Shown one piece after another: positions 36,274-53,503 of a DNA stretch of 64,000 nucleotides. The notes under the pieces were generated by a model that was not told the DNA's origin, searched no databases, and saw only the letters and a program-made list of their open reading frames with translations. The DNA is from a virus: positions 186,001 through 250,000 of IMG/VR virus record IMGVR_UViG_3300043418_000114. One strand, written 5' to 3'. How positions within the stretch are numbered: the stretch's first letter is position 1; every line of letters begins with the position of its first letter. Both the position numbers and the translations under genes were made by a program.

Positions 36274-37695
36274 TTACGACAAGTCGTAACGTGTCTTCAT
36301 CACTGTCTTCAACATGACGGCTTCTGGTGTGAAGTCTTCCAAGTCGTTAGACAATACAGAAGTTGCTAGTGCTGGGCTAAAGCCTGACACTAGTGCAGTA
36401 CCACTCTTATCGAATGACACTGGTGTGTTACCGTAACTTGCGTTCAAGTTCCAGAAGACAACTTTTGGAAGTGCGTAGCCTGCGGCTTCGTACTTACGTG
36501 CGATCATTTGCATCGCGGTGTCGTCATGCTTAACACATTGGTTAAATTGCATGTCTGAGAAGATAACAAGAGTTTCAGGCATTTCTGCTTGTGGAACACT
36601 GTTTTCTGTCGCAGTCTTCAGGATCTTTTCAAACGCCTTGTGAAGGTCTGTACTCATATCCCAGTTAGACTTGACCATTTGGTCAATCTTTTGGTTGATG
36701 TTACCCTTTAGGTGCATCAATTCTGGCTTGCTTGAGAAGGTCAAGAAGGTATCTTTGAACTTACCCTTGTTCTTATCAGCAAAGTACAAACCTAGGCTAA
36801 CAGCAACTTCCATGCAAGACAGGTTGCTCTTAGAGCCATGACCACCTGCTGGACAAGACATTGAACCAGAAACGTCAACCAGAGGAAGAACGTTTGCATC
36901 GCCAACGTAGTTAGGCATTGCTTCCCATTGCTTTTGGATCAAGTCAGTTTCAGTCTTGTTAAACTGCATCCAACCACCAATACGACCCTTCAGTACGTCA
37001 TATGGGAACACTGCGCCTGCGTTAACCTTAACACCAGCTTCGCCCTTAACGAGCTTAGTTACATATTCAGCGTATGTAGTACCATGACGGCCAAACGCTT
37101 TCTTGTAACGTGCATGTGCCACTGAAGGAACATGTGAGTAGTTGATGTTATCCCAATTTTGGGCACACATTTGTGTTTCAACAACATTAGTAAGGCCGAC
37201 TAGGCTCTTACGATATTGTTTAGGGGTCATTCCGAAGAATTGACGGATTTCACGTGCTACTTCACCTTTACGTGGAGTCCACTTAGCCGCAAGACCGTTA
37301 CCTGCACGTAGTGCATCGCCGAGCATAGTGTATGCCTTGGCCTTCACAGGCTGAGTCTTAAACACTAGCAAGTCGTCGTAACGACCCAATTCTGGAATCT
37401 TAGCCATCAAACGCATTGCGTCTTCTGGGTTAGTCTTTTCCAAGTGAACGAGGATGTCTCGGAAGACTTGACGTTCACCTGAACCACCACGTGCATCACG
37501 TGCCCATTGAGCGATACGCAATGCAAGATCAGAGTTCTCTACATAAGCCGCTGTGAAAGCCGGCACGATGTTTTTACCACGGCTTGCACCGATGTTGTAA
37601 AACAAATCAACACATGCGTTAGCACTTGATTTGCGAGCCTTCATACCATTGGTGGTACGAGTTGATTGATTCTTAACTGCTTCTGCGAATTGCAT
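36274..37695 (-). CDS. Ro60/TROVE-like vWA protein (DUF2828 type)
   Basis: 473 aa. Residues ~1-240 are helical repeats resembling the TROVE ring of Ro60 (e.g. NIVPAFTAAYVENSDLALRIAQWARDARGGSGERQVFRDIL, IPELGRYDDLLVF); ~265-470 is a von Willebrand A domain with intact MIDAS DVSGSMS (Asp274, Ser276, Ser278), VIFSDMQFNQC and FWNLN. Ro60 proteins bind Y RNAs and misfolded RNAs and help RNA decay. Structured RNA flanks the gene on both sides, and a sigma-70 promoter lies at 37793. Ribosome site AAAGGAG. Confidence 0.85.
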   Translation of the reverse strand: MQFAEAVKNQSTRTTNGMKARKSSANACVDLFYNIGASRGKNIVPAFTAAYVENSDLALRIAQWARDARGGSGERQVFRDILVHLEKTNPEDAMRLMAKIPELGRYDDLLVFKTQPVKAKAYTMLGDALRAGNGLAAKWTPRKGEVAREIRQFFGMTPKQYRKSLVGLTNVVETQMCAQNWDNINYSHVPSVAHARYKKAFGRHGTTYAEYVTKLVKGEAGVKVNAGAVFPYDVLKGRIGGWMQFNKTETDLIQKQWEAMPNYVGDANVLPLVDVSGSMSCPAGGHGSKSNLSCMEVAVSLGLYFADKNKGKFKDTFLTFSSKPELMHLKGNINQKIDQMVKSNWDMSTDLHKAFEKILKTATENSVPQAEMPETLVIFSDMQFNQCVKHDDTAMQMIARKYEAAGYALPKVVFWNLNASYGNTPVSFDKSGTALVSGFSPALATSVLSNDLEDFTPEAVMLKTVMKTRYDLS

Positions 37696-37721
37696 AGTAA
37701 CTCCTTTCTATGTGTGTTATG

Positions 37722-37789
37722 CAACAGGATGCGCTTTTAGTTTCATCTATGAATTGAAATTTTAAAGTTTGCTGAATGCATCCTAAAAC
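37722..37789 (-). ncRNA. AGGAT/ATCCT-helix RNA element A
   Basis: Minus strand: TTTTAGGATGC-ATTCAGCAA ... GCGCATCCTGTT; 7-bp closing helix AGGATGC/GCATCCT, conserved CAGCAA, internal hairpin TTCAAT/ATGAA-like. It begins at the start site expected for the promoter at 37793 and is therefore the 5' leader of the Ro-like mRNA or a separate RNA. Member of a seven-copy family. Confidence 0.65.
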
Positions 37790-37792
37790 TTG

Positions 37793-37821
37793 ATTGTACT
37801 ACAGTAGTCATTGTATGTCAA
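37793..37821 (-). promoter_or_regulatory. Sigma-70 promoter for the Ro-like gene
   Basis: TTGACA (37821-37816), 17-bp spacer, TACAAT (37798-37793) on the minus strand; transcription would begin at the edge of element A. Confidence 0.82.
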
Positions 37822-37835
37822 CTGTAGTTCGAAAA

Positions 37836-37995
37836 ATAAAACAGGATCGTTGTTGACTGCTTTTTGAATAGGGCCATCACTCCTATTGCGATAGATGCAT
37901 TTCAATAACTACCTTCAAAGTCCGTAGACTCCAGTAGTTACCATGCGATCCATCAGTTCCAATAAAGTAAATTATTGCTGTACCGATCCTAAAAA
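37836..37995 (-). ncRNA. AGGAT/ATCCT-helix RNA element B, multi-branched
   Basis: Closing helix AGGATCG/CGATCCT with CAGCAA next to it. Inside on the minus strand: hairpin CAATAA/TTATTG; an 11-bp stem GATGGAT-C-GCAT/ATGC-ATCTATC with one bulged C, topped by TAACTAC/GTAGTTA; and AATAGG/CCTATT. Three arms on an outer stem give a cloverleaf-like plan. A bulged C in a long helix is a feature of Ro-binding Y RNAs, but the sequence is not the classical one. Confidence 0.6.
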
Positions 37996-38305
37996 TAAAC
38001 GGGATGTTTGAACGTAGTTTATTTTATTGTCTGGTTGAGTCTAACTCACCTTTGCAGGACTTACGTTCCTCAACCATATCAACAATTCATGTTGACTATC
38101 TAGTAATTGAGTCTGCTACTAGCAACATAGAATGTCTTTCCATTCTGTCGTCTATTCCCTGAATGCTTAGTTGCCTAAGAGTATTGCTACTGTCTCCCGA
38201 CCACCTTCTATAGCTGATAGTTTGATTTTTAAATGCTGAACACATCCCAGTCATTCAATACAAGTATTGTATCATCAATACATGTGATTTTAAACTGTTT
38301 TGGGT
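37996..38305 (-). ncRNA. Gene-free structured region upstream of the Ro-like gene
   Basis: No coding frame. Minus-strand helices include TGGTTGAG/CTCAACCA (8 bp), AGAATG/CATTCT, TCAACA/TGTTGA and, at 38252-38265, CAATAC-TT-GTATTG. The last includes a TACAAT with a weak upstream TTTAAA 17 bp away, matching the -10 region of the tRNA-array promoters, so transcription of this region may begin near 38250. Confidence 0.5.
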
Positions 38306-38307
38306 AA

Positions 38308-39441
38308 CTATCGTAAATTAATTTTTACGTTAGGGTCTAATGTGATGCTAGACCAATTCTTGTTGAAATTGCCCCATATATCTTTCTCATTCTTGTAATC
38401 AGAAAGCAATGATAGCAATTGTGGATTGAATCGCTCAACTATCTTACGTTGAATAAGACCTGTTGTGGAATTCAGGGTGATATCCTCTACTGACATTCTA
38501 TGAATCGTTTGAGGGATTCGTATGTCTGCGAAAGGACTAAAAGTCATGTTGTTGTCAATGTGCCAATACTGATGATCATAAAAAATTGTTGAGTATAAAA
38601 ACTTCATCAACTGTTCTTGGTCGTAGTATTCTTCCATTGAATCTTTGTACTTGGCTACAACATTGGGACGCTTCAAAAACCAATAAAGATAATCAGTTTC
38701 TTTAGCTAGTTCGTCAATGTGTTTGCCTTGATAGTTTGCCAATGCGTTGATTGCTTCGCCGTCACGGTACTGATATGTCTCTGCATAGAAGCCAGTTGCA
38801 TACCAATTTAATTCCGTAAATGCACTTGATACATCATATCCCCAGTGTTTACTGGATACAAAGTCTACCAAGTCACTATCGTACTCTCTAACTCTGCCCA
38901 AAAACTTATGTAACGTATCGTCACCTTGTTTAGGCACATATGCTGTTAGAGTATAGTCTTTTGTGTAGCTGTCTAGTACAGCCCATGTTGTTAGGGTATC
39001 CAGTCCTGCTGAATACAACACATTCATGCGTTCAATATTATTGTACTTGTAGAAGTTTCGTGTGTTTTCTAACAATATATCGCCGATGATAATCGACGAC
39101 TCTTCCAATGACAGTAGGGTATCATTGGGAATTTTAGGTTCATTGTATGTAACAATGCCGTAGCCTTCAGTGGCTAGGTTTGTTTGTTCACCATTGCGTT
39201 CATATAATGGAAAACCTCTGAGAACTGGGTGATACACTTTTTCGTCATGTATCACGCACCATTTCCCAGCTGGCTGATAGCCATCAAGTATTTCTAGTAG
39301 CGTATCTGCTAGAGTACAATCTACGCTATAACCCTTATACCAGATGTTATCTTTTTGTTTCCAGCCGCCATCTAAAAACAGGCGATCTGAAACTTTGTTC
39401 ATCGCCTGTATTGGACAATTGGATCCGATGTAGAAAAACAT
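38308..39441 (-). CDS. Asparagine-synthetase-like PP-loop ATPase
   Basis: 377 aa. MNVLYSAGLDTLTTWAVL at ~140-157 is a PP-loop (SxGxDS/T variant) of the N-type ATP pyrophosphatases; the C-terminal ~200 residues with HIDELAKETDYLYWFLKRPNVVAKY fit asparagine-synthase-like domains. The N-terminal part resembles the beta-rich half of such enzymes but lacks the Cys1 glutaminase residue. Could amidate or adenylate an acceptor, possibly tRNA or peptide; unassigned. It overlaps the omega gene by 1 nt. Confidence 0.7.
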   Translation of the reverse strand: MFFYIGSNCPIQAMNKVSDRLFLDGGWKQKDNIWYKGYSVDCTLADTLLEILDGYQPAGKWCVIHDEKVYHPVLRGFPLYERNGEQTNLATEGYGIVTYNEPKIPNDTLLSLEESSIIIGDILLENTRNFYKYNNIERMNVLYSAGLDTLTTWAVLDSYTKDYTLTAYVPKQGDDTLHKFLGRVREYDSDLVDFVSSKHWGYDVSSAFTELNWYATGFYAETYQYRDGEAINALANYQGKHIDELAKETDYLYWFLKRPNVVAKYKDSMEEYYDQEQLMKFLYSTIFYDHQYWHIDNNMTFSPFADIRIPQTIHRMSVEDITLNSTTGLIQRKIVERFNPQLLSLLSDYKNEKDIWGNFNKNWSSITLDPNVKINLR

Positions 39442-39665
39442 TATCGCTTGTTGCCGATGCGCTTTAGATAATCACGGCCGACTAGGCCCTTTTCGATTTC
39501 TTGCAATGCAGTAACAAGATGGCCTGCTTTTGTTGCTAGTTTTGGTCGATGACCACGGGATAATTCACGAGTACGTTGACTTGCGATTAGAATCAAATCA
39601 TATCGATTGCCAACTGCATTAACTGCATCTTCGCTAGTATAGCGAACTCTACTTTCTGTCGTCAT
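39441..39665 (-). CDS. rpoZ: RNA polymerase omega subunit homologue
   Basis: 74 aa. SEDAVNAVGNRYDLILIASQRTRELSRG is the conserved omega core (T/S-x-E-D-A-V-x-x-x-G-N-R-x-D-L-x-L-x-A), followed by TALQEIEKGLVG. Omega wraps the beta' C-terminus and helps polymerase assembly. The homology is convincing; whether it joins the host RNA polymerase or a phage one cannot be seen here. Phage omega homologues are rare outside very large phages. Confidence 0.88.
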   Translation of the reverse strand: MTTESRVRYTSEDAVNAVGNRYDLILIASQRTRELSRGHRPKLATKAGHLVTALQEIEKGLVGRDYLKRIGNKR

Positions 39666-39694
39666 TTTTTACCTTTTAAGGTTGTTAATAAACA

Positions 39695-39770
39695 TGGAGC
39701 GGGAAAAGGGGCTCGAACCCTCGACCTATACCTTGGCAAGGTATCGCTCTACCAACTGAGCTATTCCCGC
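39695..39770 (-). tRNA. tRNA-Gly(GCC)
   Basis: Minus-strand cloverleaf; anticodon loop TTGCCAA, stems ATACC/GGTAT; acceptor GCGGGAA paired with TTCCCGC, discriminator T and encoded CCA. Ends the minus-strand tRNA array at its low-coordinate side. Confidence 0.97.
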
Positions 39771-39776
39771 ATGTTC

Positions 39777-39851
39777 TGGTACATCGACACGGTTTCGAAC
39801 CGCGGACCCTCTCCGTGTAAAGGAGACGCTCTACCCCTGAGCTATCGATGC
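39777..39851 (-). tRNA. tRNA-Val(TAC)
   Basis: Anticodon loop TTTACAC on TCTCC/GGAGA; acceptor GCATCGA/TCGATGT; ACCA end encoded. Confidence 0.96.
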
Positions 39852-39862
39852 ATATATTCTAT

Positions 39863-40051
39863 TTAGCCACCCTGTTGGCTATCTTTAATTTCTGTTCCCC
39901 AGTCAATTTCCTTCTTGTCATCAGACATATCAGGTAATGGAGGTGGAACGTAACGTTCACGCTTTGGCTTTTCACCAAAGATTTTGTCCATGTTCTCACC
40001 GAATTCTGTAGGACTAATACTAAATGGACGAGGACGAGAACCCTTGCTCAT
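39863..40051 (-). CDS. Small Pro-rich phage protein
   Basis: 62 aa: MSKGSRPRPFSISPTEFGENMDKIFGEKPKRERYVPPPLPDM. Coupled to the next upstream gene (stop overlaps start). Similar short proteins are seen in large phages; function unknown. Confidence 0.68.
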   Translation of the reverse strand: MSKGSRPRPFSISPTEFGENMDKIFGEKPKRERYVPPPLPDMSDDKKEIDWGTEIKDSQQGG

Positions 40052-40488: not shown

Positions 40489-40613
40489 TTAACAGGTTCT
40501 CTTTTTTCGTGCTACCACTACACCAACGCGAAGACCAACTCGCGCCTGGGATTCGAACCCAGCCCCTCTTTTTTACAGAAAGATTATTAAGATTGCTGAA
40601 AAGAACCTAATGG
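40489..40613 (-). ncRNA. RNA element G: permuted tRNA(GTA) body in an AGGTTC/GAACCT helix
   Basis: Minus strand order: outer helix AGGTTC(TTTT), CAGCAA, anticodon-type hairpin TCTTT-CTGTAAA-AAAGA (anticodon GTA), T arm CTGGG-TTCGAAT-CCCAG, 3' acceptor GCGCGAG, 6-nt loop, 5' acceptor TTCGCGT, D arm GTG-TAGTGGTAG-CAC, then GAACCT closing the helix. The 3' half of a tRNA thus precedes its 5' half, and the acceptor strands pair over 7 bp. Either a permuted tRNA or a Y-RNA-like tRNA mimic. Confidence 0.7.
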
Positions 40614-40857: not shown

Positions 40858-40940
40858 TTTATACTGAAACACACTAACCAAGTCTCCTAACCTGTATCAA
40901 CTGCCCCACTTGTGCAGTTATCAATGCGTTTTAGTATAAA
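40858..40940 (-). ncRNA. Inverted-repeat RNA, AAACAC/GTGTTT family
   Basis: TTTATACTGAAACAC pairs with GCGTTTTAGTATAAA (13 of 15). Inside on the minus strand: hairpins AACTGC/GCAGTT and CAGGT/ACTTG. One of several similar elements between tRNA genes. Confidence 0.5.
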
Positions 40941-41118
40941 GGCTATCAGAGGCTTGCCATCGCCCTTAGGTTATACTGATATTACTCGTTGAAATATACC
41001 GAAGTATAGAGTTGGATTCAACAAGACCCTACTACTCACCTAAACTCATGTAGTCTGTAACGCATCATCATGAAGGGTCCAGCGACCTCTATCGTTACAG
41101 CATCTGGTTACATTCTTT
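40941..41118 (-). ncRNA. Structured non-coding stretch
   Basis: No gene. Minus strand has TATAC-TTCG-GTATA, a UUCG-capped hairpin (about 40996-41009), and CTGTAACG/CGTTACAG closing a ~48-nt loop (41057-41100). Confidence 0.4.
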
Positions 41119-41200
41119 CTATACTGAAACACACTGACTCTCCAGTATTTCTACTTTCGCCGAGTTTGACCGCGTAGTCGTGCAATGTGTTTTAGTATAG
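41119..41200 (-). ncRNA. Inverted-repeat RNA, AAACACA/TGTGTTT family
   Basis: CTATACTGAAACACA pairs with TGTGTTTTAGTATAG (14 of 15) around a ~52-nt interior with a GACT/AGTC helix. Confidence 0.55.
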
Positions 41201-42083
41201 TGGAGCACTGAGAATACATGCTTACCGAGTAACACCTCAGACATTATTACAATCCTTGCGAGACTGCTTTCTTCTGACTTCCACTGCAACCTCTTGCGAG
41301 TATCACAGTCTGTTACCAACATCGCCGTTTTAAGTCAGGCATTAGACTTGACGCTGTATGCTATTCTACGCTTTCTATCCCGTTGACCTTTAGAGCCATT
41401 CACTACCGCTAAGTAGTTACGAAACTTCCTGCATAAACAGATTTCACCTTGCGAGTTACGTCTGACTGGATTATCTTGCGACTCCAGTATTAGATGCTTT
41501 TCACATACAACCGAGACAGACTTTGCTTTTTTAATCGATAGAAGGGATCGAACCTTCAGCCGACTGCTTGAAAATGCAGTTGATCTACCATTGATCTATA
41601 TCAACCTACTGTGATGTGCTGTCTCAGTTGCTTCATAATCTTTTGGACTACAAAATACAACACGCCACGTACCTTTTGTCTCGCGGACTACTCAGTCGTC
41701 TTTCACGATTAATGTCGGGTCTCGGCTTTCGCGTACCTCCATCAACCATTCAAACTGCATTACAACTCTTAGATGCGACTCCTCGAATCATAACACTACC
41801 CTTTCTCATACCAATTAACTGGACTGGTTTTGTCGTGAGGTCAGCACCACCTGTTACTCTCTAATGACTTGCGTTACCCTCGATATTATCTCAGGCGCTT
41901 AAGCCACTAATTCTTTCCACAACTTCCAGCGTCATTGTTATCACCACCGGTCTTATCAGTGATGAAACCCTCGCGGGTTTGAGCAGGCTTGCTTAGATGA
42001 ACTATTTCTAGCGCGGGTCTGTAGGAGACTACCGCTTTGGGCCGATCACTCGGCTTATTCTAATGAGGCTAAGCCCCCATAAA
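41201..42083 (-). ncRNA. Large gene-free structured RNA region with an embedded tRNA
   Basis: About 880 nt without a credible gene. The minus strand repeats CTCGCAAG three times plus GTCGCAAG (41255-41490), has GNRA-capped hairpins AAACCC-GCGA-GGGTTT (41965-41980) and GCCGA-GTGA-TCGGC (42042-42055), and encloses a tRNA (41533-41605) in a GAGACAG/CTGTCTC helix. Size, tRNA neighbourhood and an internal tRNA recall the GOLLD RNA class; this is a hypothesis. Confidence 0.45.
41533..41605 (-). tRNA. tRNA-Glu(TTC)-like with 8-nt anticodon loop
   Basis: Acceptor GTTGATA/TATCGAT, D arm GATC/GATC, T arm GAAGG-TTCGATC-CCTTC are good. The anticodon stem ACTGC/GCAGT closes an 8-nt loop ATTTTCAA instead of 7, so TTC is the likeliest reading but not certain. 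CCA is not encoded. Lies inside an outer GAGACAG/CTGTCTC helix. Confidence 0.75.
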
Positions 42084-42200
42084 TTCTTATACTCGCATAC
42101 ACTTGCAATATTGAAATTGCCTACCGGAAGGATATCTCACATCCAGCTGTGTCCGCTCACATCCGTATGGCCTATACGTTTATGTATGCGAGTATAAGAA
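42084..42200 (-). ncRNA. Inverted-repeat RNA with an 18-bp perfect stem
   Basis: TTCTTATACTCGCATACA pairs perfectly with TGTATGCGAGTATAAGAA; the interior contains CGTAT/ATACG, GGAT/ATCC and GCAAT/ATTGC hairpins on the minus strand. Confidence 0.6.
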
Positions 42201-42212
42201 CTACTTTCTTAA

Positions 42213-42301
42213 CATTGTTGAACATACTAGTGCATTTCCAAATTATGCTACTCCTCATCAGGGATGGAATCGAACCAACATCCCTAATACATTCAACAAT
42301 G
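42213..42301 (-). ncRNA. tRNA-like element in permuted order, 10-bp closing helix
   Basis: CATTGTTGAA/TTCAACAATG close the element. On the minus strand a T-arm-like GTTGG-TTCGATT-CCATC is followed by a D-arm-like GCAT-AATTTGGAA-ATGC; the acceptor between them is reduced to CCT/AGG. It has the same permuted order as elements D and G but is degenerate. Confidence 0.45.
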
Positions 42302-42323
42302 CTAAGAAAATTCTTAGCAATAA

Positions 42324-42947: not shown

Positions 42948-43013
42948 AAAACAGGATGCTTATTTTTCAATTAAAAGTTGAATTATAAGATGTTGCTGGA
43001 CGCATCCTAAAAC
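42948..43013 (-). ncRNA. AGGAT/ATCCT-helix RNA element C
   Basis: Minus strand TTTTAGGATGCGTCCAGCAA ... GCATCCTGTTTT; closing helix AGGATGC/GCATCCT, conserved CAGCAA, inner hairpin TTCAA/TTGAA. Lies between tRNA-Trp and tRNA-Ser. Confidence 0.62.
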
Positions 43014-43104: not shown

Positions 43105-43117
43105 ATTAAAATATTTA

Positions 43118-43203
43118 TACCATATGTAAACACACTAGCGTTTTTCACTAAACTACAACTTGACTGGACTTGACCAGTGACTCTATTGTGCTTGCATATG
43201 GTG
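43118..43203 (-). ncRNA. Inverted-repeat RNA, AAACACA/TGTGTTT family
   Basis: TACCATATGTAAACACA pairs with TGTGCTTGCATATGGTG; the interior on the minus strand contains ACTGG/CCAGT. Confidence 0.52.
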
Positions 43204-43312
43204 ACAGTTTAGTCCGATAACTGCCAAGAGTTGTGGTGATCCGGCACACCTTTTATGTATAAGTTGACTACAAGAGGCTTATACACTAGGGCCTTCACGT
43301 TGCCCTATTTTT
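43204..43312 (-). ncRNA. Short structured stretch
   Basis: No gene. Hairpins CAGTT/AACTG and GTATAAG/CTTATAC (7 bp, 43256-43283) are visible. Confidence 0.35.
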
Positions 43313-43442
43313 TAATACCATATAGAAACACACTGTCGTTTCTCTTTCCAGTCTAGACAACCTCGCTTACGAAGCACGATTATATCACAGGATTACGCAT
43401 CCTGCTCGTCACTGTACTCAAGCAATGTGTTTTTATATGGTA
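43313..43442 (-). ncRNA. Inverted-repeat RNA, AAACACA/TGTGTTT family
   Basis: ACCATATAGAAACACA pairs with TGTGTTTTTATATGGT (15 of 16). The interior holds AGGAT/ATCCT and GCTT/AAGC hairpins. One strand runs into the CCA end of tRNA-Lys. Confidence 0.52.
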
Positions 43443-43512
43443 GGGGCACAGGGAATCGAACCCTGATAGACCGGTTAAAAGCCGGATATTCTAGCCGTTG
43501 AATTATACCCCC
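43438..43512 (-). tRNA. tRNA-Lys(TTT)
   Basis: Anticodon loop CTTTTAA on CCGG/CCGG; acceptor GGGGGTA/TGCCCCT; ACCA encoded. Confidence 0.95.
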
Positions 43513-44316: not shown

Positions 44317-44345
44317 GTAAAATATCTGATTAAAAATCATAAAAT

Positions 44346-44486
44346 AGTGTATTCAGCTGGCAGACTGCAACAAGATACTATCCTCTAATATATTAGTATC
44401 ACAGTGATATTAAGTTCCGGACCCTAATATCACCAAAGTCTGGCAAATAAGATATATAAATTCAAAGTTTATTAAATGAATACACT
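44346..44486 (-). ncRNA. Structured RNA with nested helices and two hairpins
   Basis: Closing helix AGTGTATTCA/TGAATACACT (10 bp perfect), then CAGACT/AGTCTG, enclosing GATACTA/TAGTATC and GTGATATTA/TAATATCAC (9 bp). The perfect nesting over 140 nt without any gene is strong evidence of a folded RNA. Not recognised. Confidence 0.65.
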
Positions 44487-44499
44487 AATTTATGATTTT

Positions 44500-44576: not shown

Positions 44577-44591
44577 ATAATCTAAAACCAT

Positions 44592-44619
44592 ATTATAATA
44601 CACTCCCAATGCATGTCAA
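44592..44619 (-). promoter_or_regulatory. Sigma-70 type promoter
   Basis: TTGACA (44619-44614), 16-bp spacer, TATAAT (44597-44592) on the minus strand, upstream of tRNA-Met/Ile2 and tRNA-Ser(GCT). Confidence 0.75.
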
Positions 44620-44633
44620 GCACTGTAACTTCA

Positions 44634-44707
44634 TGGTACATCTTGAACCACAGTTTCGAACCTGTGAAATGTAGCACTATCTAGTATCAACTCTTTCGAA
44701 TTCAAAA
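44634..44707 (-). tRNA. tRNA-like element, anticodon not recognisable
   Basis: T arm CACAG-GTTCGAA-CTGTG and an 8-bp acceptor TTTTGAAT/GTTCAAGA are visible, followed by TGTACCA; the D and anticodon arms do not fold normally. A decayed tRNA or tRNA mimic. Confidence 0.4.
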
Positions 44708-44762
44708 CATACTAGACCCGGCAAGCTGGGGCCTCTATATATGACAAGAGTATACTATAATA

Positions 44763-44849
44763 TGGTGCGGGTGGCCGGAATCGAACCGGCACGGTGTCTC
44801 CACCGACGGATTTTAAGTCCGTTACGTCTACCTATTTCATCACACCCGC
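44763..44849 (-). tRNA. tRNA-Leu(TAA)
   Basis: Anticodon loop CTTAAAA on ACGGA/TCCGT; normal long variable arm; acceptor GCGGGTG/CACCCGC; ACCA encoded. Confidence 0.97.
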
Positions 44850-45227: not shown

Positions 45228-45656
45228 TTATTTGTTTTTGCCACACCAAGTGTCAGTCTGTGAATGACAATTGGGACAGAGTAATCTTAAGTTTTTAAAC
45301 TTGTGATTGTGATTATCGCCGTCTATGTGATCTAAATGTAGAGAAATTTCTTTTCCCATCCATTCTTCTAATCCACACGACGAGCATTTGTTATCTAATA
45401 TTTTTTCTTTTAACAAACGCTTTTTCAGTTTTAGTGTTTGATATGTAGGATGCAATCCTTCTAGAATTTCATTCAACTCTATCTTCTTTGCACCACCACC
45501 TATCTTAAAATCTAAACCTAATCTTTTTGCTCTACGCCAAACTGTAACATCTGGCACATTAAAATAATGTGCTAACTTGCTCAAGACTGGCGTAATGTTA
45601 TACTGTTCTATCAATTCAGTATCTGTAAACTTTTCTGTACTATGTTTTTGTTTCAT
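45228..45656 (-). CDS. HNH homing-type endonuclease
   Basis: 142 aa. N-terminal helix-turn-helix-like PVLSKLAHYFNVPDVTVWRRAKRLG; CSSCGLEEW ... ISLHLDHIDGDNHNHKFKNLRLLCPNCHSQT is an HNH nuclease with CxxC pairs. Sits 1 nt from tRNA-Tyr inside the array and starts 4 nt after a CATAAATA late-type element without a Shine-Dalgarno. Probably a selfish endonuclease. Confidence 0.9.
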   Translation of the reverse strand: MKQKHSTEKFTDTELIEQYNITPVLSKLAHYFNVPDVTVWRRAKRLGLDFKIGGGAKKIELNEILEGLHPTYQTLKLKKRLLKEKILDNKCSSCGLEEWMGKEISLHLDHIDGDNHNHKFKNLRLLCPNCHSQTDTWCGKNK

Positions 45657-45904: not shown

Positions 45905-45980
45905 TGGTACTCCGTATGGGAATCGAACCCATCTTACCAACGTGAAAGGCTGGTGTCCTAAACCGATAGACGAACGGAGC
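45905..45980 (-). tRNA. tRNA-Glu(TTC)
   Basis: Anticodon loop CTTTCAC on CCAGC/GTTGG; acceptor GCTCCGT/ACGGAGT; ACCA encoded. Confidence 0.96.
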
Positions 45981-45989
45981 ATAGTTATT

Positions 45990-46106
45990 CACTATATGTA
46001 AACACAAAAGCAATACTAACCGGGCGGTCGATATCGGCGTTAGCCAAGTCACTTACCCAGACTTTCAAACTAATGTGCTTACATATAGTGACTGCTTCAC
46101 AGCAGT
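45990..46106 (-). ncRNA. Inverted-repeat RNA plus adjacent hairpin
   Basis: CACTATATGTAAACACA pairs with TGTGCTTACATATAGTG (45990-46090, 15 of 17); next to it ACTGCT-TCAC-AGCAGT (46091-46106). First RNA downstream of promoter 2. Confidence 0.55.
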
Positions 46107-47310: not shown

Positions 47311-47871
47311 CTACGAAAGCAAGATTCTAGAATGCTTTGGCACACCTGCCATCAAGTATTCCATTTGGTCTGCAAGAATTGTTCGTTGTTGCAGAATCAT
47401 GTTTTCATAGTGGTTAGGTTCATAAGGAACATAAAGTAGTTCCATACGTGCTTCTTTCAAAGACTTATGACCCTTCTTAGAGTTACATTCCTTACATGCA
47501 GTAACTACGTTCATCCAAGTGTTGTCGCCGCCATGGTACCGAGGTACAATGTGGTCACGGCTTAGATTGTGATAGTTAGGGAAATGTCCACCACAGTATG
47601 CACAAACATACCGGTCACGACCAAACAATGTCTTGTTAGTCAATGCAACATGTGCGTGACGATGTGGGTTATAACCATGACCCTTGATAGCAATAATAGA
47701 AGGAGATTCTAGGTAGCTTAGTGATCCGTCACGTTGTACGCCACCACGATACTTCGCAACAATTTCACCCATAGACCATGCTACGGAGTCAGTTGCGTGA
47801 TATGCAATTGCGTCATCGTTTGAGATCCATTGCCGGGGAACTCCTGAAATATCTAGTGCTAGAACAGCCAT
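47311..47871 (-). CDS. HNH endonuclease
   Basis: 186 aa. DRYVCAYCGGHFPNYHNLSRDHIVPRYHGGDNTWMNVVTACKECNSKKG is a complete HNH domain with CxxC...CxxC zinc site and the DH general base. The rest is a conserved N-terminal beta region and a helical tail. AAAGGAG ribosome site. Likely a phage DNA endonuclease or homing enzyme. Confidence 0.92.
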   Translation of the reverse strand: MAVLALDISGVPRQWISNDDAIAYHATDSVAWSMGEIVAKYRGGVQRDGSLSYLESPSIIAIKGHGYNPHRHAHVALTNKTLFGRDRYVCAYCGGHFPNYHNLSRDHIVPRYHGGDNTWMNVVTACKECNSKKGHKSLKEARMELLYVPYEPNHYENMILQQRTILADQMEYLMAGVPKHSRILLS

Positions 47872-48683: not shown

Positions 48684-48775
48684 TGGCGGAAAGCAGAGGA
48701 GTCGAACCCCATCCCCGTTAGGAGAACCCAGTTTTCAAGGCTGGTCGGCACACCAACGCGCCTGCATTACTTTCC
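48684..48775 (-). tRNA. tRNA-Ser(TGA), second copy
   Basis: Anticodon loop CTTGAAA on CCAGC/ACTGG; class-II variable arm CTCCTAACGGGG; acceptor GGAAAGT/GCTTTCC; GCCA encoded. Diverged from the copy at 43015. Confidence 0.95.
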
Positions 48776-48776: not shown

Positions 48777-49781
48777 TTATTTTTTGACGCCACGGGATGG
48801 ATTGAGCAATTCATGTAGATGCTCAATATATCGGTGGACTTCTTGATACACTAATTTTAGGTATCGTCTACGAACCTGCACTTCTTGTGGGTTGCGCGGT
48901 TCGGCGAATCTATTGCTGATTCTATTGTTTATGTAAGAAATGATATCTTCACTTTCAATGCGAGGAATATCTTGTAGTCTTTCAACTTTATCTAAGCCAT
49001 TTGCTTTAATAACGTCTAATGCCATTTGATGTGCAAATGCGGCAATTTCTTGTGGACTAGCATAATACAAGTCGTAGTAACGATCTTTGTTCTTAGACTT
49101 TACAGCCTTTTGTGCGGCGCTGTAGAACTCACCCTTAGTTTTATCTAAGTAGCTACGATATTCAGTCTTGCCTAGTGGTCTATGTGCCTGTTGCTTGTGT
49201 TGAACTAAGTGTACTGCCTCGTGAACTACAATTGATACAATCTTGTCGATTGCACTGTCCATGTCTTTCAAAAGTACATTAAGAATTTCTCTGTCATTAG
49301 ATTTCAACATCTTGAACAAGAAACTCATGCCCTTTGTTCTATCGCCTGCCTCATAATTGTCATACAAATAAATGCTAAAACGATTCATGATTGTACGAGC
49401 AATTGCTGGCAAGTAAGCACGATTAATAACCATGTTAGAACCCTGTGCGTAACCGCCCATGCCCTTCATGGTACCAAATCTGAACTTAGATATTGCGTCT
49501 TTACCAAGGATCTTTTCCAAGGTAAGTTTCATTTGTTTGGTAATACCTTTTTCAATCTTTTCATTACCTTCACGTTGCATGAACTCACGTACATAACGAT
49601 CACTTAGGTTATCGTCGTTTAAGATTTCTTGCAAGTTTGGATTGTTCATGAATGACTTTTCCAATGCAGACACGCCATTAATAATGCCGTCTTTAACAGC
49701 CCTTGACAAGTCTTCTTCATACTTGGTCATACTTATGGCTTCATCGACCACTTCTTCATTAACAAATTCAAATATACGCAT
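48777..49781 (-). CDS. Zincin metallopeptidase-like phage protein
   Basis: 334 aa from ATG 49781. VSIVVHEAVHLVQHKQQ gives HExxH at 187-191 and YYASPQEIAAFAHQ a downstream Glu ligand. The N-terminal ~110 residues are helical and Asn/Glu-rich; the C-terminus contains RNPQEVQVRRRYLKLVYQEVHRYIEHLHELL. GATAAATA stands 8 nt before the ATG. Possibly a late, virion-associated protease; substrate unknown. Confidence 0.75.
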   Translation of the reverse strand: MRIFEFVNEEVVDEAISMTKYEEDLSRAVKDGIINGVSALEKSFMNNPNLQEILNDDNLSDRYVREFMQREGNEKIEKGITKQMKLTLEKILGKDAISKFRFGTMKGMGGYAQGSNMVINRAYLPAIARTIMNRFSIYLYDNYEAGDRTKGMSFLFKMLKSNDREILNVLLKDMDSAIDKIVSIVVHEAVHLVQHKQQAHRPLGKTEYRSYLDKTKGEFYSAAQKAVKSKNKDRYYDLYYASPQEIAAFAHQMALDVIKANGLDKVERLQDIPRIESEDIISYINNRISNRFAEPRNPQEVQVRRRYLKLVYQEVHRYIEHLHELLNPSRGVKK

Positions 49782-49802
49782 AGTACATATATTTATCTTA
49801 TT

Positions 49803-49880
49803 TGGTGTGTCCTGTTGGAATCGAACCAACTTCTCCGATTTTTCAGACCGGCGCTGAATGACCACACTAGCTCAGGACAC
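49803..49880 (-). tRNA. tRNA-Phe(GAA), second copy
   Basis: Anticodon loop CTGAAAA on CCGGT/ATCGG; acceptor GTGTCCT/AGGACAC; unusually long D arm; ACCA encoded. Confidence 0.93.
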
Positions 49881-49881
49881 A

Positions 49882-50244
49882 TTAAATTGTTTTATATCTT
49901 TTATCTTTTTGCTTGTGTTCTACGTCCCACTTGATTGCGGCGCCAGAACAAAACTTTTCATCTTTCCAGAATCTTGCTCCATTCAATATGAATGGCTTCA
50001 ATACTCTATCACCGTTCCACCAACCACGTTGGCATTTAATGAAGCCTTTTGCTTCTAATTCGTTTCGTAGTTCTTTGAACTCTGGATGATCATCATGTGA
50101 CAATGACTTACATCGATCCTCGCCCTTGATAATCTTAATCAATTGATCTGGTGTTAGTTCGTTTACTGGAATGTGATCATACATTCCCCACTCTTTTTCA
50201 ATCTTAACATCACATAATGAATTCATGTCGATTTCAAACTTCAT
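49882..50244 (-). CDS. Hypothetical phage protein
   Basis: 120 aa from ATG 50244 (GGAGGAAG ribosome site). DHIPVNELTPDQLIKIIKGEDRCKSLSHDDHPEFKELRNELEAKGFIKCQRGWWNGDRVLKPFILNGARFWKDEKFCSGAAIKW. The mid helix and Trp-rich C-terminus look like a small DNA- or RNA-associated domain; unassigned. Confidence 0.72.
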   Translation of the reverse strand: MKFEIDMNSLCDVKIEKEWGMYDHIPVNELTPDQLIKIIKGEDRCKSLSHDDHPEFKELRNELEAKGFIKCQRGWWNGDRVLKPFILNGARFWKDEKFCSGAAIKWDVEHKQKDKRYKTI

Positions 50245-50410
50245 GCTTCCTCCATTGTAGGTTTTTGAGCGCCCAACTATCTTTCTCAAGGACTCACTGG
50301 ATTGTCTCGTATGAAGGAGTTTAGCAACCTTGTACTGCTACTGGCGTGTCAGTCACAAGAATAGGGACCTAGCGCACAAGGGACTCTACTTCTACGTCTA
50401 TCTCAAAAAT
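50245..50410 (-). other. Gene-free stretch
   Basis: No credible gene, tRNA or strong helix seen; probably spacer or unrecognised RNA between the gene starting at 50244 and the mini tRNA-like element. Confidence 0.3.
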
Positions 50411-50464
50411 TGGTGGTAGGCTTTCCTGGCACATGTAACCAGTAAGGCCCGGGCGCCGCCTACC
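50411..50464 (-). tRNA. Mini tRNA-like hairpin with CCA
   Basis: Only 54 nt: acceptor GGTAGGC/GCCTACC (7 bp perfect) followed by A and CCA; inside, CTGG/CCAG forms one short arm. It looks like a tRNA acceptor minihelix with an encoded CCA end and no anticodon arm. Confidence 0.45.
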
Positions 50465-50474
50465 ATAACTCGAA

Positions 50475-50556
50475 TGTGTGTTGTAGGATTCGAACCTACA
50501 TCAGGAGGTTTTTAGGCCTCTTGTAATGATGCCCTAAACATTTATACGAAACACAC
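50475..50556 (-). tRNA. Atypical tRNA with large D region and 8-nt anticodon loop
   Basis: Acceptor GTGTGTT/AACACAC and T arm GTAGG-TTCGAAT-CCTAC are perfect. GAGG/CCTC closes an 8-nt loop CCTAAAAA; the D region is ~25 nt. Anticodon TAA (Leu) or AAA is possible. CCA is not encoded. Confidence 0.6.
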
Positions 50557-50561
50557 AAAAC

Positions 50562-50640
50562 TGGCTTCGTTAGCAAGACTCGAACTTGCGATAGTGGCTT
50601 CAAATCGCGTATGCTGGGTGCCACCGTGTTTCCCAAAGTT
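50562..50640 (-). tRNA. tRNA-like 3' part with CCA, expanded anticodon loop
   Basis: T arm GCAAG-TTCGAGT-CTTGC, TAACGAA and GCCA are tRNA-like; GTGGC/GCCAC could be an anticodon stem around a 21-nt loop. No 5' acceptor partner for TAACGAA is found upstream. Boundaries uncertain. Confidence 0.35.
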
Positions 50641-50826
50641 ACCCTCGTATCCCCTCTGCTAGTTTATCTCACTTTTCTCACATTTCGACCTGTTCCGCAC
50701 TTCCCGGACTCACAGTGTTTGGTTTTAAAGCCTACGCGATTGTTATCTACTTTGTTTTACTAGTTGCCTTATTAATAGCATACTCAATACTACTCTACCT
50801 TCCTCTACACTATAACGAAATAAAAT
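50641..50826 (-). other. Gene-free stretch
   Basis: About 185 nt without a gene or clear tRNA; A/T-rich, no convincing helix family member seen. Confidence 0.3.
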
Positions 50827-50902
50827 TGGCACCGTAGACGGGAATCGAACCCGCCGCGTCTTCATAGACAGTGAAGTATCACCCCTAGGTGAACTCTACG
50901 GT
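50827..50902 (-). tRNA. tRNA-Asp(GTC), second copy
   Basis: Anticodon loop CTGTCTA on CTTCA/TGAAG; acceptor ACCGTAG/CTACGGT; GCCA encoded. Confidence 0.93.
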
Positions 50903-50907
50903 ATAAA

Positions 50908-51447
50908 TCATTTTACAACATCTTGCCAACGAATGACTAGTGATTTGTCGTAATTTTGAGTTTTGTTCTTTCTGCGATTTTCCAATGCAGGAAGATACTG
51001 AAAGTTATCAGGATGATGTAGACCTCCGCATGCCAATGGCACAATATGGTCGACTTCGTATCCAGTTGGACAACTCTCGTAAATTTTTCGAATTAACTGA
51101 CTATCAACGTAATCAGGTGTTGCGTTGTACTTTCTCGCTCTATAGTTTTGTACATTCAACACATTTAATTTTGCAGATTCGTCTTTCGTTTTTCTTCCAA
51201 CTTTATCCCAATAAGCTATTCTAGCCTCTGATATTTTGGCAGAATGTTCTGCTGTTCTCGGCTTAAGTTTCTTTCCTTTGGTACTGGTTTGCTTAATTGA
51301 ACCAGAAGCAATTCCTTCTTTAACCGAGTTGGCTATTTTTCGTTTCGTTTCATCGGATCTAACTCTAGAGTTAGCACACGGTCTACAACAATACTTTCCT
51401 GATCCATATGATCCATCATGTTCACTATTACATTTGAGGCAAAACAT
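50908..51447 (-). CDS. HNH homing endonuclease with zinc and NUMOD-like region
   Basis: 179 aa. CLKCNSEHDGSYGSGKYCCRPCANSR is a zinc site; RSDETKRKIANSVKEG resembles a NUMOD DNA-binding repeat; GYEVDHIVPLACGGLHHPDNFQYLPALENRRKN is the HNH core. GATAAATA and AAAGGAA lie upstream. Selfish endonuclease embedded in the tRNA array, with no intron visible next to it. Confidence 0.9.
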   Translation of the reverse strand: MFCLKCNSEHDGSYGSGKYCCRPCANSRVRSDETKRKIANSVKEGIASGSIKQTSTKGKKLKPRTAEHSAKISEARIAYWDKVGRKTKDESAKLNVLNVQNYRARKYNATPDYVDSQLIRKIYESCPTGYEVDHIVPLACGGLHHPDNFQYLPALENRRKNKTQNYDKSLVIRWQDVVK

Positions 51448-51496
51448 ATTAAATTCCTTTAATATATTTATCGAACCTCGCTCATTCTTTAGTTTT

Positions 51497-51572
51497 TGGC
51501 TCCCCAGGATGGGATCGAACCACCGACATCCTGATTAACAGTCAGGCGCAACTACCGCTGTGCTACTGGGGA
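51497..51572 (-). tRNA. tRNA-Asn(GTT), second copy
   Basis: Anticodon loop CTGTTAA on CCTGA/TCAGG; acceptor TCCCCAG/CTGGGGA; GCCA encoded. Confidence 0.96.
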
Positions 51573-51580
51573 ATAATTCT

Positions 51581-51655
51581 TGGTGCCTCCACCTGGGCTC
51601 GAACCAGGGACTCCCACCTTATCAAGATGATACTCTACCACTGAGTTATAGAGGC
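51581..51655 (-). tRNA. tRNA-Ile(GAT)
   Basis: Anticodon loop TTGATAA on TCATC/GGTGG; acceptor GCCTCTA/TGGAGGC; ACCA encoded. Confidence 0.96.
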
Positions 51656-51665
51656 AATTAATTGT

Positions 51666-51739
51666 TGGTACCCAGTGCAAGAATTGAACTTGCGTCTATC
51701 GATTATCAGTCGATTGCTCTTCCGTTGAGCTAACCGGGC
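51666..51739 (-). tRNA. tRNA-Ile(GAT), second copy
   Basis: Anticodon loop CTGATAA on ATCGA/TCGAT; acceptor GCCCGGT/ACTGGGT; ACCA encoded. Confidence 0.94.
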
Positions 51740-51745
51740 ATTGTT

Positions 51746-51821
51746 TGGTAGATGTGAGTGGATTCGAACCACCGACCTGCTCCGTATGAAGGAGATGCAC
51801 TAGCCGCTGTGCTACACATCC
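51746..51821 (-). tRNA. tRNA-Met or Ile2 (CAT)
   Basis: Anticodon loop TTCATAC on TCTCC/GGAGC; acceptor GGATGTG/CACATCT; ACCA encoded. Confidence 0.93.
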
Positions 51822-51827
51822 ATTGTA

Positions 51828-51902
51828 TGGTGCTCCTTGACAGAATCGAACTGCCACCCCTAGATTACAAAACTAGTCCACTACCATTATGATTAAAAGA
51901 GC
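51828..51902 (-). tRNA. tRNA-Thr(TGT), second copy
   Basis: Anticodon loop TTTGTAA with one T-T mismatch closing it; acceptor GCTCTTT/AAGGAGC; ACCA encoded. Somewhat degenerate. Confidence 0.88.
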
Positions 51903-51905
51903 AAA

Positions 51906-52025
51906 TAAAACAGGATACATTCTTGACGAATGCTCTACCAATTGAGCTAATCTCGCATGAAGCGAAATGTTGGAATCGAACCAACGACACATCGTTTGAT
52001 GTAGTTTGCTGTATGTATCCTAAAA
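51906..52025 (-). ncRNA. RNA element D: permuted tRNA body in an AGGATACAT/ATGTATCCT helix
   Basis: Minus strand order: AGGATACAT, ACAGCAA, hairpin ACATC/GATGT, T arm GTTGG-TTCGATT-CCAAC, 3' acceptor ATTTCGC, 5-nt loop, 5' acceptor GCGAGAT, TA, D arm GCTC-AATTGGTA-GAGC, linker, ATGTATCCT. The acceptor strands pair over 7 bp and the closing helix over 9. No standard anticodon loop forms. This is the topology of YrlA-type Y RNAs or of a circularly permuted tRNA. Confidence 0.7.
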
Positions 52026-52026
52026 T

Positions 52027-52146
52027 TGGCGCCGCCGGAGGGATTCGAACCCCCATCTCTTCCTTGACATGGAATTTTTATATGCTGAACGTACTCTGTA
52101 CAGAGTCACTTTTTATAAGTGTCCTGATCCATTAGACGACAGCGGC
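52027..52146 (-). tRNA. tRNA-Asp(GTC)-like with insertion before the anticodon arm
   Basis: Acceptor GCCGCTG/CGGCGGC, D arm GTC-TAATGGATCAG-GAC, anticodon hairpin TTCC-ATGTCAA-GGAA and T arm GGGGG-TTCGAAT-CCCTC with GCCA end. About 45 nt are inserted between D and anticodon arms, containing hairpins CACTT/AAGTG and ACTCT/AGAGT. Could be an intron or a tRNA mimic. Confidence 0.72.
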
Positions 52147-52153
52147 GATAAAT

Positions 52154-52227
52154 TGGTGCGGGGTAAGGGAGTTGAACCCTTGACTAAACGTTGGCAACGT
52201 TTGATTTTACCGTTAAACTAACCACGC
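52154..52227 (-). tRNA. tRNA-Gly(GCC), second copy
   Basis: Anticodon loop TTGCCAA on AAACG/CGTTT; acceptor GCGTGGT/ACCCCGC; ACCA encoded. Confidence 0.94.
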
Positions 52228-52235
52228 ATAAAAAC

Positions 52236-52312
52236 TGGAATACGGAGTGAGATTTGAACTCACGAATAACTGGTTTGCAATCAGTCCCCTTAGGCCGCTC
52301 GGGCATCCGTAC
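52236..52312 (-). tRNA. tRNA-Cys(GCA), second copy
   Basis: Anticodon loop TTGCAAA; acceptor GTACGGA/TCCGTAT; TCCA encoded. Confidence 0.92.
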
Positions 52313-52322
52313 ATAAATTGAT

Positions 52323-52398
<76 letters not shown>

Positions 52399-52411
52399 AA
52401 ATTCACTTAGG

Positions 52412-52485
52412 GGTGACCGGTGGGACTTGAACCCACAAAAACCTGAGTCACAGTCAGGGTCGTCTACCAATTCCGACACGGCCAC
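52412..52485 (-). tRNA. tRNA-His(GTG)
   Basis: Anticodon loop CTGTGAC on CCTGA/TCAGG; acceptor GTGGCCG/CGGTCAC; discriminator C as expected for His. CCA not encoded; flanks CTTAGG/CCTAAG extend the acceptor helix. Confidence 0.93.
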
Positions 52486-52506
52486 ACCTAAGTAAACTTA
52501 GGAGAA

Positions 52507-52574
52507 ATAAAACAGGATGCGTTTTTGCTTTTTACCAATAAAAGTTTTTTTAATTGCTGAATGCATCCTAAAAA
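52507..52574 (-). ncRNA. AGGAT/ATCCT-helix RNA element E
   Basis: Minus strand TTTTAGGATGCATTCAGCAA ... GCATCCTGTTTTATTT; closing helix AGGATGC/GCATCCT as in elements A and C. Directly follows the terminator at 52575. Confidence 0.62.
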
Positions 52575-52604
52575 CAAAAAACCCTGAGAGGATCAGGGTT
52601 TGTA
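52575..52604 (-). terminator. Rho-independent terminator (minus strand)
   Basis: Minus strand AAACCCTGA-TCCTC-TCAGGGTTTTTTG; 8-bp hairpin and T-run after the gene at 52622. Confidence 0.92.
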
Positions 52605-52621
52605 ATGTGTTGCAAGTATGT

Positions 52622-53275
52622 TTACTTTTTAGGATAAACATACAGTTTTTGCAAGTCTGGTCTTTCAGGTTCTAACCACTCGCCTTTCTTGCACATAGCA
52701 ATGATGCTTTTTGGGCATCCTGCTAACTCTAATTGTGTATAAGAACTAAGTCCTCTACCTTGAATTTTAGGTTGCATATGACATGGCTGAGGAACTTCTC
52801 TCCAATAACCGGTGCCATTGTCTACACCTGATGCAATGTAGTTAGTGTATTCTGCTTTGATACCAGGACGAAAATAAATTGTCAAGCCACGATCAGGTGT
52901 TTCATACACTCTAGGACCATCAACAAATATTTCTGCCATGTCTAAGCATGTCATTACAGCAGTAGGTCGCTGTAGATGATCTAACCTTGTGCCATCAGGG
53001 CATGCACCGTTGTCTAACTCAGTTTTATCGCCGTTAGGCAACTCCATGAACTCGCCATGCTGAGTTTTGAATTCACCGAACAAGTCTTGGTAATTCTCAC
53101 TGATCCAGTATTTCTCGCGTGTCCAATCTTCATCCCTATCGATGGTAGTAGTCACACCTTTAAACACTTTAATATAGCCACTATCGCCGCCATCAAGTGC
53201 TTCATAAGATAATTCTTTATTGACTGTTAATGTCAATTTCTTTGTATTGTAATCATAAATCCATGGTAAAATCAT
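52622..53275 (-). CDS. Hypothetical phage protein
   Basis: 217 aa. FKGVTTTIDRDEDWTREKYWISENYQDLFGEFKTQHG, then a Cys-containing C-terminal half (CPDGTRLDHLQRPTAVMTCLDMAEIF; PCHMQPK; ELAGCPKSIIAMCKKGEW). TATAAATACTAG late-type element and GGAG ribosome site; own terminator. Late expression suggests a structural or lysis-stage role; not recognised. Confidence 0.7.
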   Translation of the reverse strand: MILPWIYDYNTKKLTLTVNKELSYEALDGGDSGYIKVFKGVTTTIDRDEDWTREKYWISENYQDLFGEFKTQHGEFMELPNGDKTELDNGACPDGTRLDHLQRPTAVMTCLDMAEIFVDGPRVYETPDRGLTIYFRPGIKAEYTNYIASGVDNGTGYWREVPQPCHMQPKIQGRGLSSYTQLELAGCPKSIIAMCKKGEWLEPERPDLQKLYVYPKK

Positions 53276-53294
53276 AGTTCGTCTCCGATACTAG

Positions 53295-53306
53295 TATTTA
53301 TAGATT
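53295..53306 (-). promoter_or_regulatory. T4-like late promoter
   Basis: Minus strand TATAAATACT, 19 nt before the ATG at 53275 with GGAG between; the spacing is that of a normal leader. Confidence 0.6.
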
Positions 53307-53315
53307 AATGAATAA

Positions 53316-53392
53316 TGGCGCCACCGAAGAGATTCGAACTCCTGACTCCTTCGTTCGTAGCGAAGTACTCTAATCCACTGAGTTACGGCGGC
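53316..53392 (-). tRNA. tRNA-Arg(ACG)
   Basis: Anticodon loop CTACGAA on CTTCG/CGAAG; acceptor GCCGCCG/CGGTGGC; GCCA encoded. Confidence 0.97.
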
Positions 53393-53397
53393 ATAAT

Positions 53398-53503
53398 ATA
53401 ACAGGATAGTTGTTTTGCAGGGGGAATTGAACCCCCAAGGTTTGATTAGAAGTCAAATTGTGAACCGTTCACATGCGTATTGTTTGCTGTAACTATCCTA
53501 AAA
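53398..53503 (-). ncRNA. RNA element F: tRNA(TCT)-like cloverleaf in an AGGATAGTT/AACTATCCT helix
   Basis: The 9-bp closing helix and ACAGCAA motif place it in the AGGAT family. Inside, in normal order: D-arm-like GTG-AACGGTT-CAC, anticodon-type TTTGA-CTTCTAA-TCAAA (TCT), T arm GGGGG-TTCAATT-CCCCC. The tRNA acceptor is reduced to GCA/TGC and replaced by the outer helix; no CCA. Arg(TCT) mimic. Confidence 0.65.

Follow-up and report, generated by a model that had tools for sequence, protein, structure and literature searches.

Introduction

The Ro60 protein binds the stem of the classical Y RNAs. In phages, the Ro proteins of jumbo phages have been noted previously in reviews and genome papers (PMC7824862; PMC7765460), and some phages have been reported to carry YrlA-like RNAs (PMC7765460, citing Sim and Wolin 2018). 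For YrlA itself (Rfam RF02553), competitive inhibition of an anticodon nuclease was suggested earlier (PMC7790460). Here we consider a 64,000-nucleotide (nt) stretch of viral DNA, the window, which comprises positions 186001-250000 of the 364-kb record of a giant phage (IMG/VR IMGVR_UViG_3300043418_000114). In it a minus-strand open reading frame (ORF), 36274-37695, for a predicted Ro60-like protein has a GOLLD RNA and approximately 45 tRNA genes upstream of it. An earlier note, made from the sequence of the window alone, had drawn attention to seven minus-strand RNA elements, A to G, dispersed from this ORF through the tRNA array. Each of these elements consists of a conserved portion, which we call the handle, and a variable cargo, and we conclude that the RNAs bearing this handle are very probably the Y-RNA family of the DUF2828-type Ro proteins.

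A Shared Handle With a Covarying Helix

All seven elements were found where the earlier note had placed them, with the closing-helix sequences that it quoted and with two copies, A and B, directly upstream of the Ro-like ORF. The handle begins with AGG and four variable bases, three free bases and CAGCAA, and its 3' strand complements those first seven bases exactly, with G, usually GT, coming next. In all seven elements the 7-bp closing helix covaries and is followed by NNNCAGCAA. Of the common ends that had been described, the 5' motif is indeed shared, but the 3' end CCTGTTTT had been overstated, as A ends CCTGTTGC and G ends CCTGTTAT.

A protein search yielded 56 related viral loci, a scan with the 5' motif alone yielded further loci, and in total about 390 additional handle copies were collected, from 174 viral loci. 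The earlier note had staked its proposal on covariation persisting as more copies were found, and persist it did. When the nearest downstream NNNNCCTGT in the 56 viral Ro loci was taken as the 3' end, with pairing ignored, 79 of the 95 ends chosen in this blind manner were complementary at all four variable positions, compared to 12.2 on average, and never more than 24, in 5000 shuffles. Similarly, a 7-bp partner at a fixed offset was present for 174 of 758 CAGCAA anchors (23%) versus 2.6% for 59 letter-permuted anchors. A 64-row alignment gave 448 paired helix cells out of 448 and a covariation score of 0.61 (0.13 when shuffled), but its rows had been picked for having the helix, so it is the blind 3'-end test that is decisive; two of our element lists were likewise pre-selected for a perfect helix, and as evidence of covariation only the blind or permuted-anchor tests count.

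A covariance model, R1, was built on short elements with the closing helix as its sole structure. Over the 364-kb genome it recovered six of the seven elements, with no other match, B being missed because of its long insert, and it also finds copies in cultured Ro-encoding phages. What is common to the copies is a conserved stem and internal-loop motif attached to variable effector modules, which is the arrangement expected of Y RNAs.

Association of the Handle With Ro Genes

An element is located within 1.2 kb of Ro in 45 of 46 viral loci (permuted-anchor mean 0.12) and in 34 of 68 loci from prokaryotic genomes, some contigs of which are possibly phage or prophage (permuted-anchor mean 0.24). 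Orientation in the viral Ro loci is uniform, with 163 elements on the strand of Ro and none on the opposite strand. Among contigs selected by the RNA motif alone, 21 of 26 encode Ro, whereas the protein occurs in 680 of 50,697 phage records; of the five motif contigs without Ro, L124 lacks a true element and the remaining four are possibly fragments. In cultured phages R1 matched 16 of the 20 that encode Ro, or 13 of 17 if the three that contributed sequences to the R1 training set are removed, and none of eight that lack Ro, T4, T5, phiKZ, SPO1 and G among them. The positive phages include those infecting Synechococcus, Aeromonas, Citrobacter, Listeria, Staphylococcus, Campylobacter and Mycobacterium, and their copies are often right beside Ro.

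Could the handle instead be bound by a protein other than Ro, or serve tRNA operons as a processing or termination signal, its proximity to Ro being coincidental? Many copies do sit between tRNA genes, and the binding of the handle by Ro is something we infer by analogy. However, this alternative sits poorly with the strength of the Ro linkage and co-orientation, with the lack of the handle in all eight Ro-less phages, T4 and T5 included, and with Aeromonas phage LAh_9, which has many handles near Ro and no tRNA annotated in the 17-kb stretch examined. We consider it quite improbable, and a processing signal in particular was rejected on the Ro linkage and the absence in Ro-less phages. The search of related phages that the earlier note had suggested found handle copies both at related viral Ro loci and in cultured Ro phages. 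Its view of a Ro-linked RNA family stands, but the family is broader than one spread through a tRNA array, being found also beside Ro in phages without nearby tRNAs and on bacterial chromosomes.

The bacterial handle occurs near Ro-like genes in Clostridia and others. Often a tRNA-like RNA carries it internally, as a hairpin with a loop of four bases that separates the D arm from the anticodon arm, and such RNAs form tandem arrays upstream of Ro. After excision of the handle, ARAGORN called a tRNA in 43 of 63 internal-handle RNAs versus 2 of 114 control hairpins. That the handle accompanies related Ro genes across numerous unrelated phages and bacteria suggests a widespread, mostly unrecognised RNA-protein system. 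In Citrobacter phage Ci1 (L176), the region just downstream of Ro, approximately 13880-14107, holds an internal-handle tRNA-like RNA and, next to it, a stretch annotated as a tRNA pseudogene that is possibly another RNA of this kind.

The Ro60-Like Protein

The Ro-like gene (36274..37695, minus strand) encodes a protein of 473 residues that falls in PHROG 850 ('RNA-binding protein') and carries DVSGS, the metal-ion-dependent adhesion site (MIDAS) motif of a von Willebrand factor A (vWA) domain. The MIDAS residues D274, S276 and S278 are invariant among 26 viral homologues, and they are so too when eight cultured-phage homologues are aligned. The earlier note had called this protein Ro60-like, which its predicted fold bears out, although its Pfam family is DUF2828/DUF7788 rather than TROVE: these two were the only Pfam profiles to match at E<=0.001, and the TROVE profile had no match at that threshold. 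A sequence search of the PDB returned no usable match, and searches of NCBIfam and PADLOC with the protein returned nothing informative. When an AlphaFold2 model made from 26 relatives (mean predicted local distance difference test score, pLDDT, 71) was compared to the PDB with Foldseek, the sole matches at E<=0.001 were 2nvo, the Deinococcus Rsr (E 1.1e-7), and 1yvr, the Xenopus Ro60 (E 1.2e-6), with template modelling (TM) scores that are low (0.35-0.44) and a domain placement that is uncertain. The predicted model has the Ro60-type combination of a HEAT-like ring and a vWA domain, and a depositor's HHpred-based annotation of one homologue reads 'putative Ro sixty-related'. The assignment of the ORF product as Ro60-like rests on that fold and that annotation and is, at the level of a structural prediction, supported.

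Two further observations concern Ro genes. Closely downstream of Ro in the window is a gene (35137-35568, minus strand) for a release-factor-like protein of 143 residues with a GGQ domain only, whose best NCBIfam matches are to RF1, those to PrfH being weaker. In the records behind L120 (G010), L122 (G022) and L110 (G025), the Ro gene is in two pieces, with the break near residues 130-170 and a gap of about 0.8-1.1 kb, possibly owing to an intron or other mobile insertion.

tRNA-Like Cargos

The earlier note had pointed out that bacterial and phage Y RNAs contain tRNA-like domains, and such domains are present in the Ro-linked RNAs as anticodon stem-loops, permuted tRNAs and tRNAs without an acceptor. 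The simplest are carried by the short elements of the window (A to G are all on the minus strand). Element A (59 nt, 37726-37784), in which the helix AGGATGC/GCATCCT is combined with ATT and CAGCAA, scores 70.6 bits with R1 and has as its cargo an anticodon-arm-like hairpin (CAU, loop TTCATAG) with a 31-39 mismatch. Elements D (56 nt, 42953-43008) and F (56 nt, 52514-52569) are closed by the same AGGATGC/GCATCCT helix; D holds the anticodon stem-loop mimic TTCAA-CTTTTAA-TTGAA (UUU, Lys) and F the hairpin CTTTT-ATTGGTA-AAAAG, whose loop is UGG-like. A seven-base loop with U33 and a purine at position 37 was found in 76 of 171 short elements, compared to a shuffle mean of 2.3 and maximum of 7, and a looser stem rule recovered anticodon-arm mimics in 140 of 219. 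The loops of the mimics have C32, U33, A37 and A38 in common. Of the 140 mimics, 129 have U or A at position 36, versus 1181 of 2027 tRNA genes (58%) in the same loci (p=4e-18), and the anticodons mimicked most often are UUU (27) and UGU (24), tallies that rest on an automatic choice of hairpin and in which the register is ambiguous in some cases.

Elements of about 100 nt hold most of a tRNA. An example is element G (97 nt, 53403-53499), whose cargo keeps a D arm, an anticodon arm (CTTCTAA, UCU) and a T arm in normal order, with the AGGATAGTT/AACTATCCT handle in place of the acceptor stem. Elements C and E represent a circularly permuted class, in which the order is T arm, 3' acceptor strand, short linker, 5' acceptor strand and D arm. 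In C (115 nt, 40494-40608, handle AGGTTCT/AGAACCT) the anticodon arm (loop CTGTAAA, GUA) precedes the T arm, an acceptor with seven of seven pairs, the linker and the D arm, and in E (110 nt, 51912-52021, handle AGGATACAT/ATGTATCCT) the T arm, a 7-bp acceptor, the linker TTCAT and the D arm are accompanied by a truncated anticodon arm. Element E aligned to the Rfam YrlA model over its full length (1-114 of 114) at 31.3 bits, the gathering threshold being 69; none of the other elements from A to G matched YrlA. The permuted acceptor is paired at seven of seven positions in 54 of 110 T-arm elements (null mean 1.1, maximum 4), and there is covariation in all five helices of the class, with pairs changed on both sides.

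The window also contains an eighth element, absent from the earlier note: a tRNA-Asp(GUC)-like RNA (52027-52146, minus strand) with the handle-like hairpin ACTCT-GTAC-AGAGT, followed by ACGTTCAGCAT, between its D and anticodon arms. Its handle ends in CAGCAT instead of CAGCAA, differing in the last base, and ARAGORN calls it as tRNA-Asp(gtc) after the insert is excised. ARAGORN and Rfam called none of A to G as a tRNA, and the tRNA finders returned no complete cloverleaf for the elements as they stand, 52027-52146 being called only without its insert.

Might these RNAs simply be tRNA genes that have decayed or become permuted and persist by chance, or permuted precursors that the phage splices into functional tRNAs? 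In favour of this, the C and E types have intact permuted acceptor stems and intact T and D arms. Yet the acceptor stems covary instead of decaying, most short elements have no acceptor, an invariant CAGCAA would not outlast decay, and bacteria have the same tRNA-plus-handle design unpermuted. Taken together, we regard this possibility as very improbable, and splicing of permuted tRNAs was rejected as the principal explanation because of the short elements without an acceptor. It is also improbable that the seven-base loops are generic U-turn loops with no anticodon mimicry. While the common C32, U33, A37 and A38 would stabilise a U-turn, positions N34-N36 spell many different anticodons, the same handle also carries full tRNA arms, and one conserved scaffold varies mainly in its anticodon letters: across phages the C-type loops are mostly CTGTAAA, CTGAAAA, CTGGAAA and CTGCAAA (GUA, GAA, GGA and GCA), with a few other values, the rows that read GTAAAAA being CTGTAAA in a shifted register.

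What Might the Mimics Do?

If each RNA is a handle plus a cargo that in most cases corresponds to part of a tRNA or to an entire but rearranged one, then Ro may hold the handle much as Ro60 holds the stem of a classical Y RNA, and each Ro ring would then display an interchangeable tRNA mimic. The mimics could serve as decoys or competitive inhibitors of host effectors that cleave or bind tRNAs, so protecting the tRNA pool during infection, and could at the same time occupy or gate the Ro ring. We consider this dual role, as decoy or competitive inhibitor and as occupant or gate of the ring, to be the likeliest function, although we would give it slightly less than an even chance. The decoy role is plausible because the commonest mimicked anticodons, UUU and UGU, are the preferred targets of the PARIS nuclease. 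Cas13a also prefers U-rich anticodons, and it cuts anticodon-arm-like loops as well (PMC11042736). Tentatively, one may envisage in phages and some bacteria an anticodon-swappable decoy library on Ro rings, in which the handle is portable, the scaffold constant and only the anticodon letters are changed to blunt different tRNA-cutting immune effectors.

Several observations weigh against the explanation as a whole, the Y-RNA assignment included. Four of the 20 Ro-encoding phages have no R1 match, although one, Vibrio phage D480, has two long elements by scan, and the strict handle is absent in half of the bacterial Ro loci (34 of 68 have one). Cargos of 145-280 nt have no tRNA explanation, such as that of element B (148 nt, 37843-37990, handle AGGATCG/CGATCCT), which is structured with no tRNA arm recognised and whose orthologues lie upstream of Ro in the majority of viral loci. 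The presence of the system on bacterial chromosomes as well means that it is not solely a counter-defence of phages. Neither RtcB nor Pfam RNA_ligase had a match in the window's 364-kb genome, which therefore lacks a classical repair operon. Finally, the U36/A36 bias could reflect a cause other than nucleases, for example enzymes that act on A37.

This last point bears on the main rival to the decoy role, in which the tRNA-like cargos would bring nucleases or enzymes of tRNA processing or modification to the Ro ring, forming a chaperone or quality-control particle for the large phage tRNA set. The t6A and i6A enzymes act on A37, and the U36/A36-A37 bias fits with them. The roughly 45 tRNAs of the window fit with such a particle as well, and tethering has a precedent in Deinococcus, where a Y RNA has been demonstrated to tether Rsr to PNPase (as quoted in PMC7790460). 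On the other hand, LAh_9 has its many handles with no annotated tRNA near Ro, and isolated anticodon arms would be poor baits for RNase P, RNase Z and CCA enzymes. Tethering of tRNA-handling enzymes is the foremost competitor of the decoy role and, in our assessment, rather less likely than not.

What would follow if the Y-RNA assignment and the decoy role are correct? Y RNAs would be a large family with one recognisable handle and a simple detection rule, and not a handful of RNAs beside a few Ro genes, and the DUF2828 proteins of phages and bacteria, now mostly 'hypothetical' or 'RNA-binding', would gain a defined RNA partner. The purpose of tRNA mimicry by Y RNAs, long an open question, would become directly testable in cultured phages, and Ro biology would be tied to the arms race over tRNA cleavage. 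In addition, tRNA-like RNAs with an inserted handle are brought to light, which escape ARAGORN until the handle is excised.

Other Features of the tRNA Array

The array (all features on the minus strand) contains a second YrlA-like RNA, at 42202-42309, which matches RF02553 at full length with 33.5 bits; its T and D arms are closed by a long helix, it has no CAGCAA, and it abuts a large inverted repeat (42085-42205). Other RNAs with long closing helices are situated between tRNA genes at 40858-40943, 41115-41205, 43110-43240, 43312-43443, 44330-44495, 44585-44765 and 45980-46100. Several of these have an ACACA/TGTGT-type segment in common, for instance TTATACTAAAACGCATTG..AGTGTGTTTCAGTATAA, and they may constitute a second handle family. 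Within the GOLLD RNA (41205-41668, 203 bits), at 41532-41606, is a tRNA-like element whose anticodon was called as four bases (tttc). Three ORFs dispersed in the array, 45228-45656, 47311-47871 and 50908-51447, resemble HNH-type endonucleases, as judged by sequence alone, and a gap of the array has a sub-threshold match to tRNA-Sec at 48688-48775 (36.6 bits versus a cut-off of 47).

Comparison With Known Systems

The tRNA clusters of T4 contain the unassigned stable RNAs C and D. Like the handle RNAs these are structured RNAs within a phage tRNA array, but T4 has neither a DUF2828-type Ro protein nor the handle. A second comparison is to the phage tRNAs that evade PARIS AriB, PrrC and retrons, which provide phage-encoded anticodon arms of the Lys(UUU), Thr(UGU) and Asn(GUU) types (PMC12409363; see also PMC10264068, PMC11555353). 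Those are working tRNAs that replace cut ones, however, whereas most handle elements cannot be translated tRNAs.

The Rsr/Y RNA system of Deinococcus radiodurans and the metazoan Ro60/Y RNAs are similar to ours in the predicted fold of the protein (2nvo, 1yvr) and in having modular small RNAs with a closing stem. They differ in that the protein here belongs to a DUF2828 clade without a TROVE match and the stem sequence is another one, and tRNA-piece cargos in such numbers are not described for their Y RNAs in the accessible literature. Parts of the handle-RNA family may already have been described in the primary Y RNA literature.

Likeness is greatest to YrlA, with which the handle RNAs share linkage to a Ro gene, a terminal helix with a conserved internal loop and, at the far side, a permuted tRNA domain of T arm, acceptor and D arm. 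That domain is present in C, E and the 54 of 110 T-arm elements, and not in A, D or F. On the other side, YrlA scores here are 31-34 bits where the cut-off is 69, CAGCAA is missing from the YrlA consensus, which contains a second long helix, and the handle RNAs are many per genome and include isolated anticodon arms, acceptor-less tRNAs and internal-hairpin handles. Membership in YrlA was rejected on the scores below the Rfam cut-off; given those scores and a YrlA consensus without CAGCAA, we file the handle RNAs as Y RNAs in the broad sense and not as YrlA. Going by sequence and predicted structure, YrlA is the closest named family, and the handle RNAs would be a distinct family that is related to it in design.

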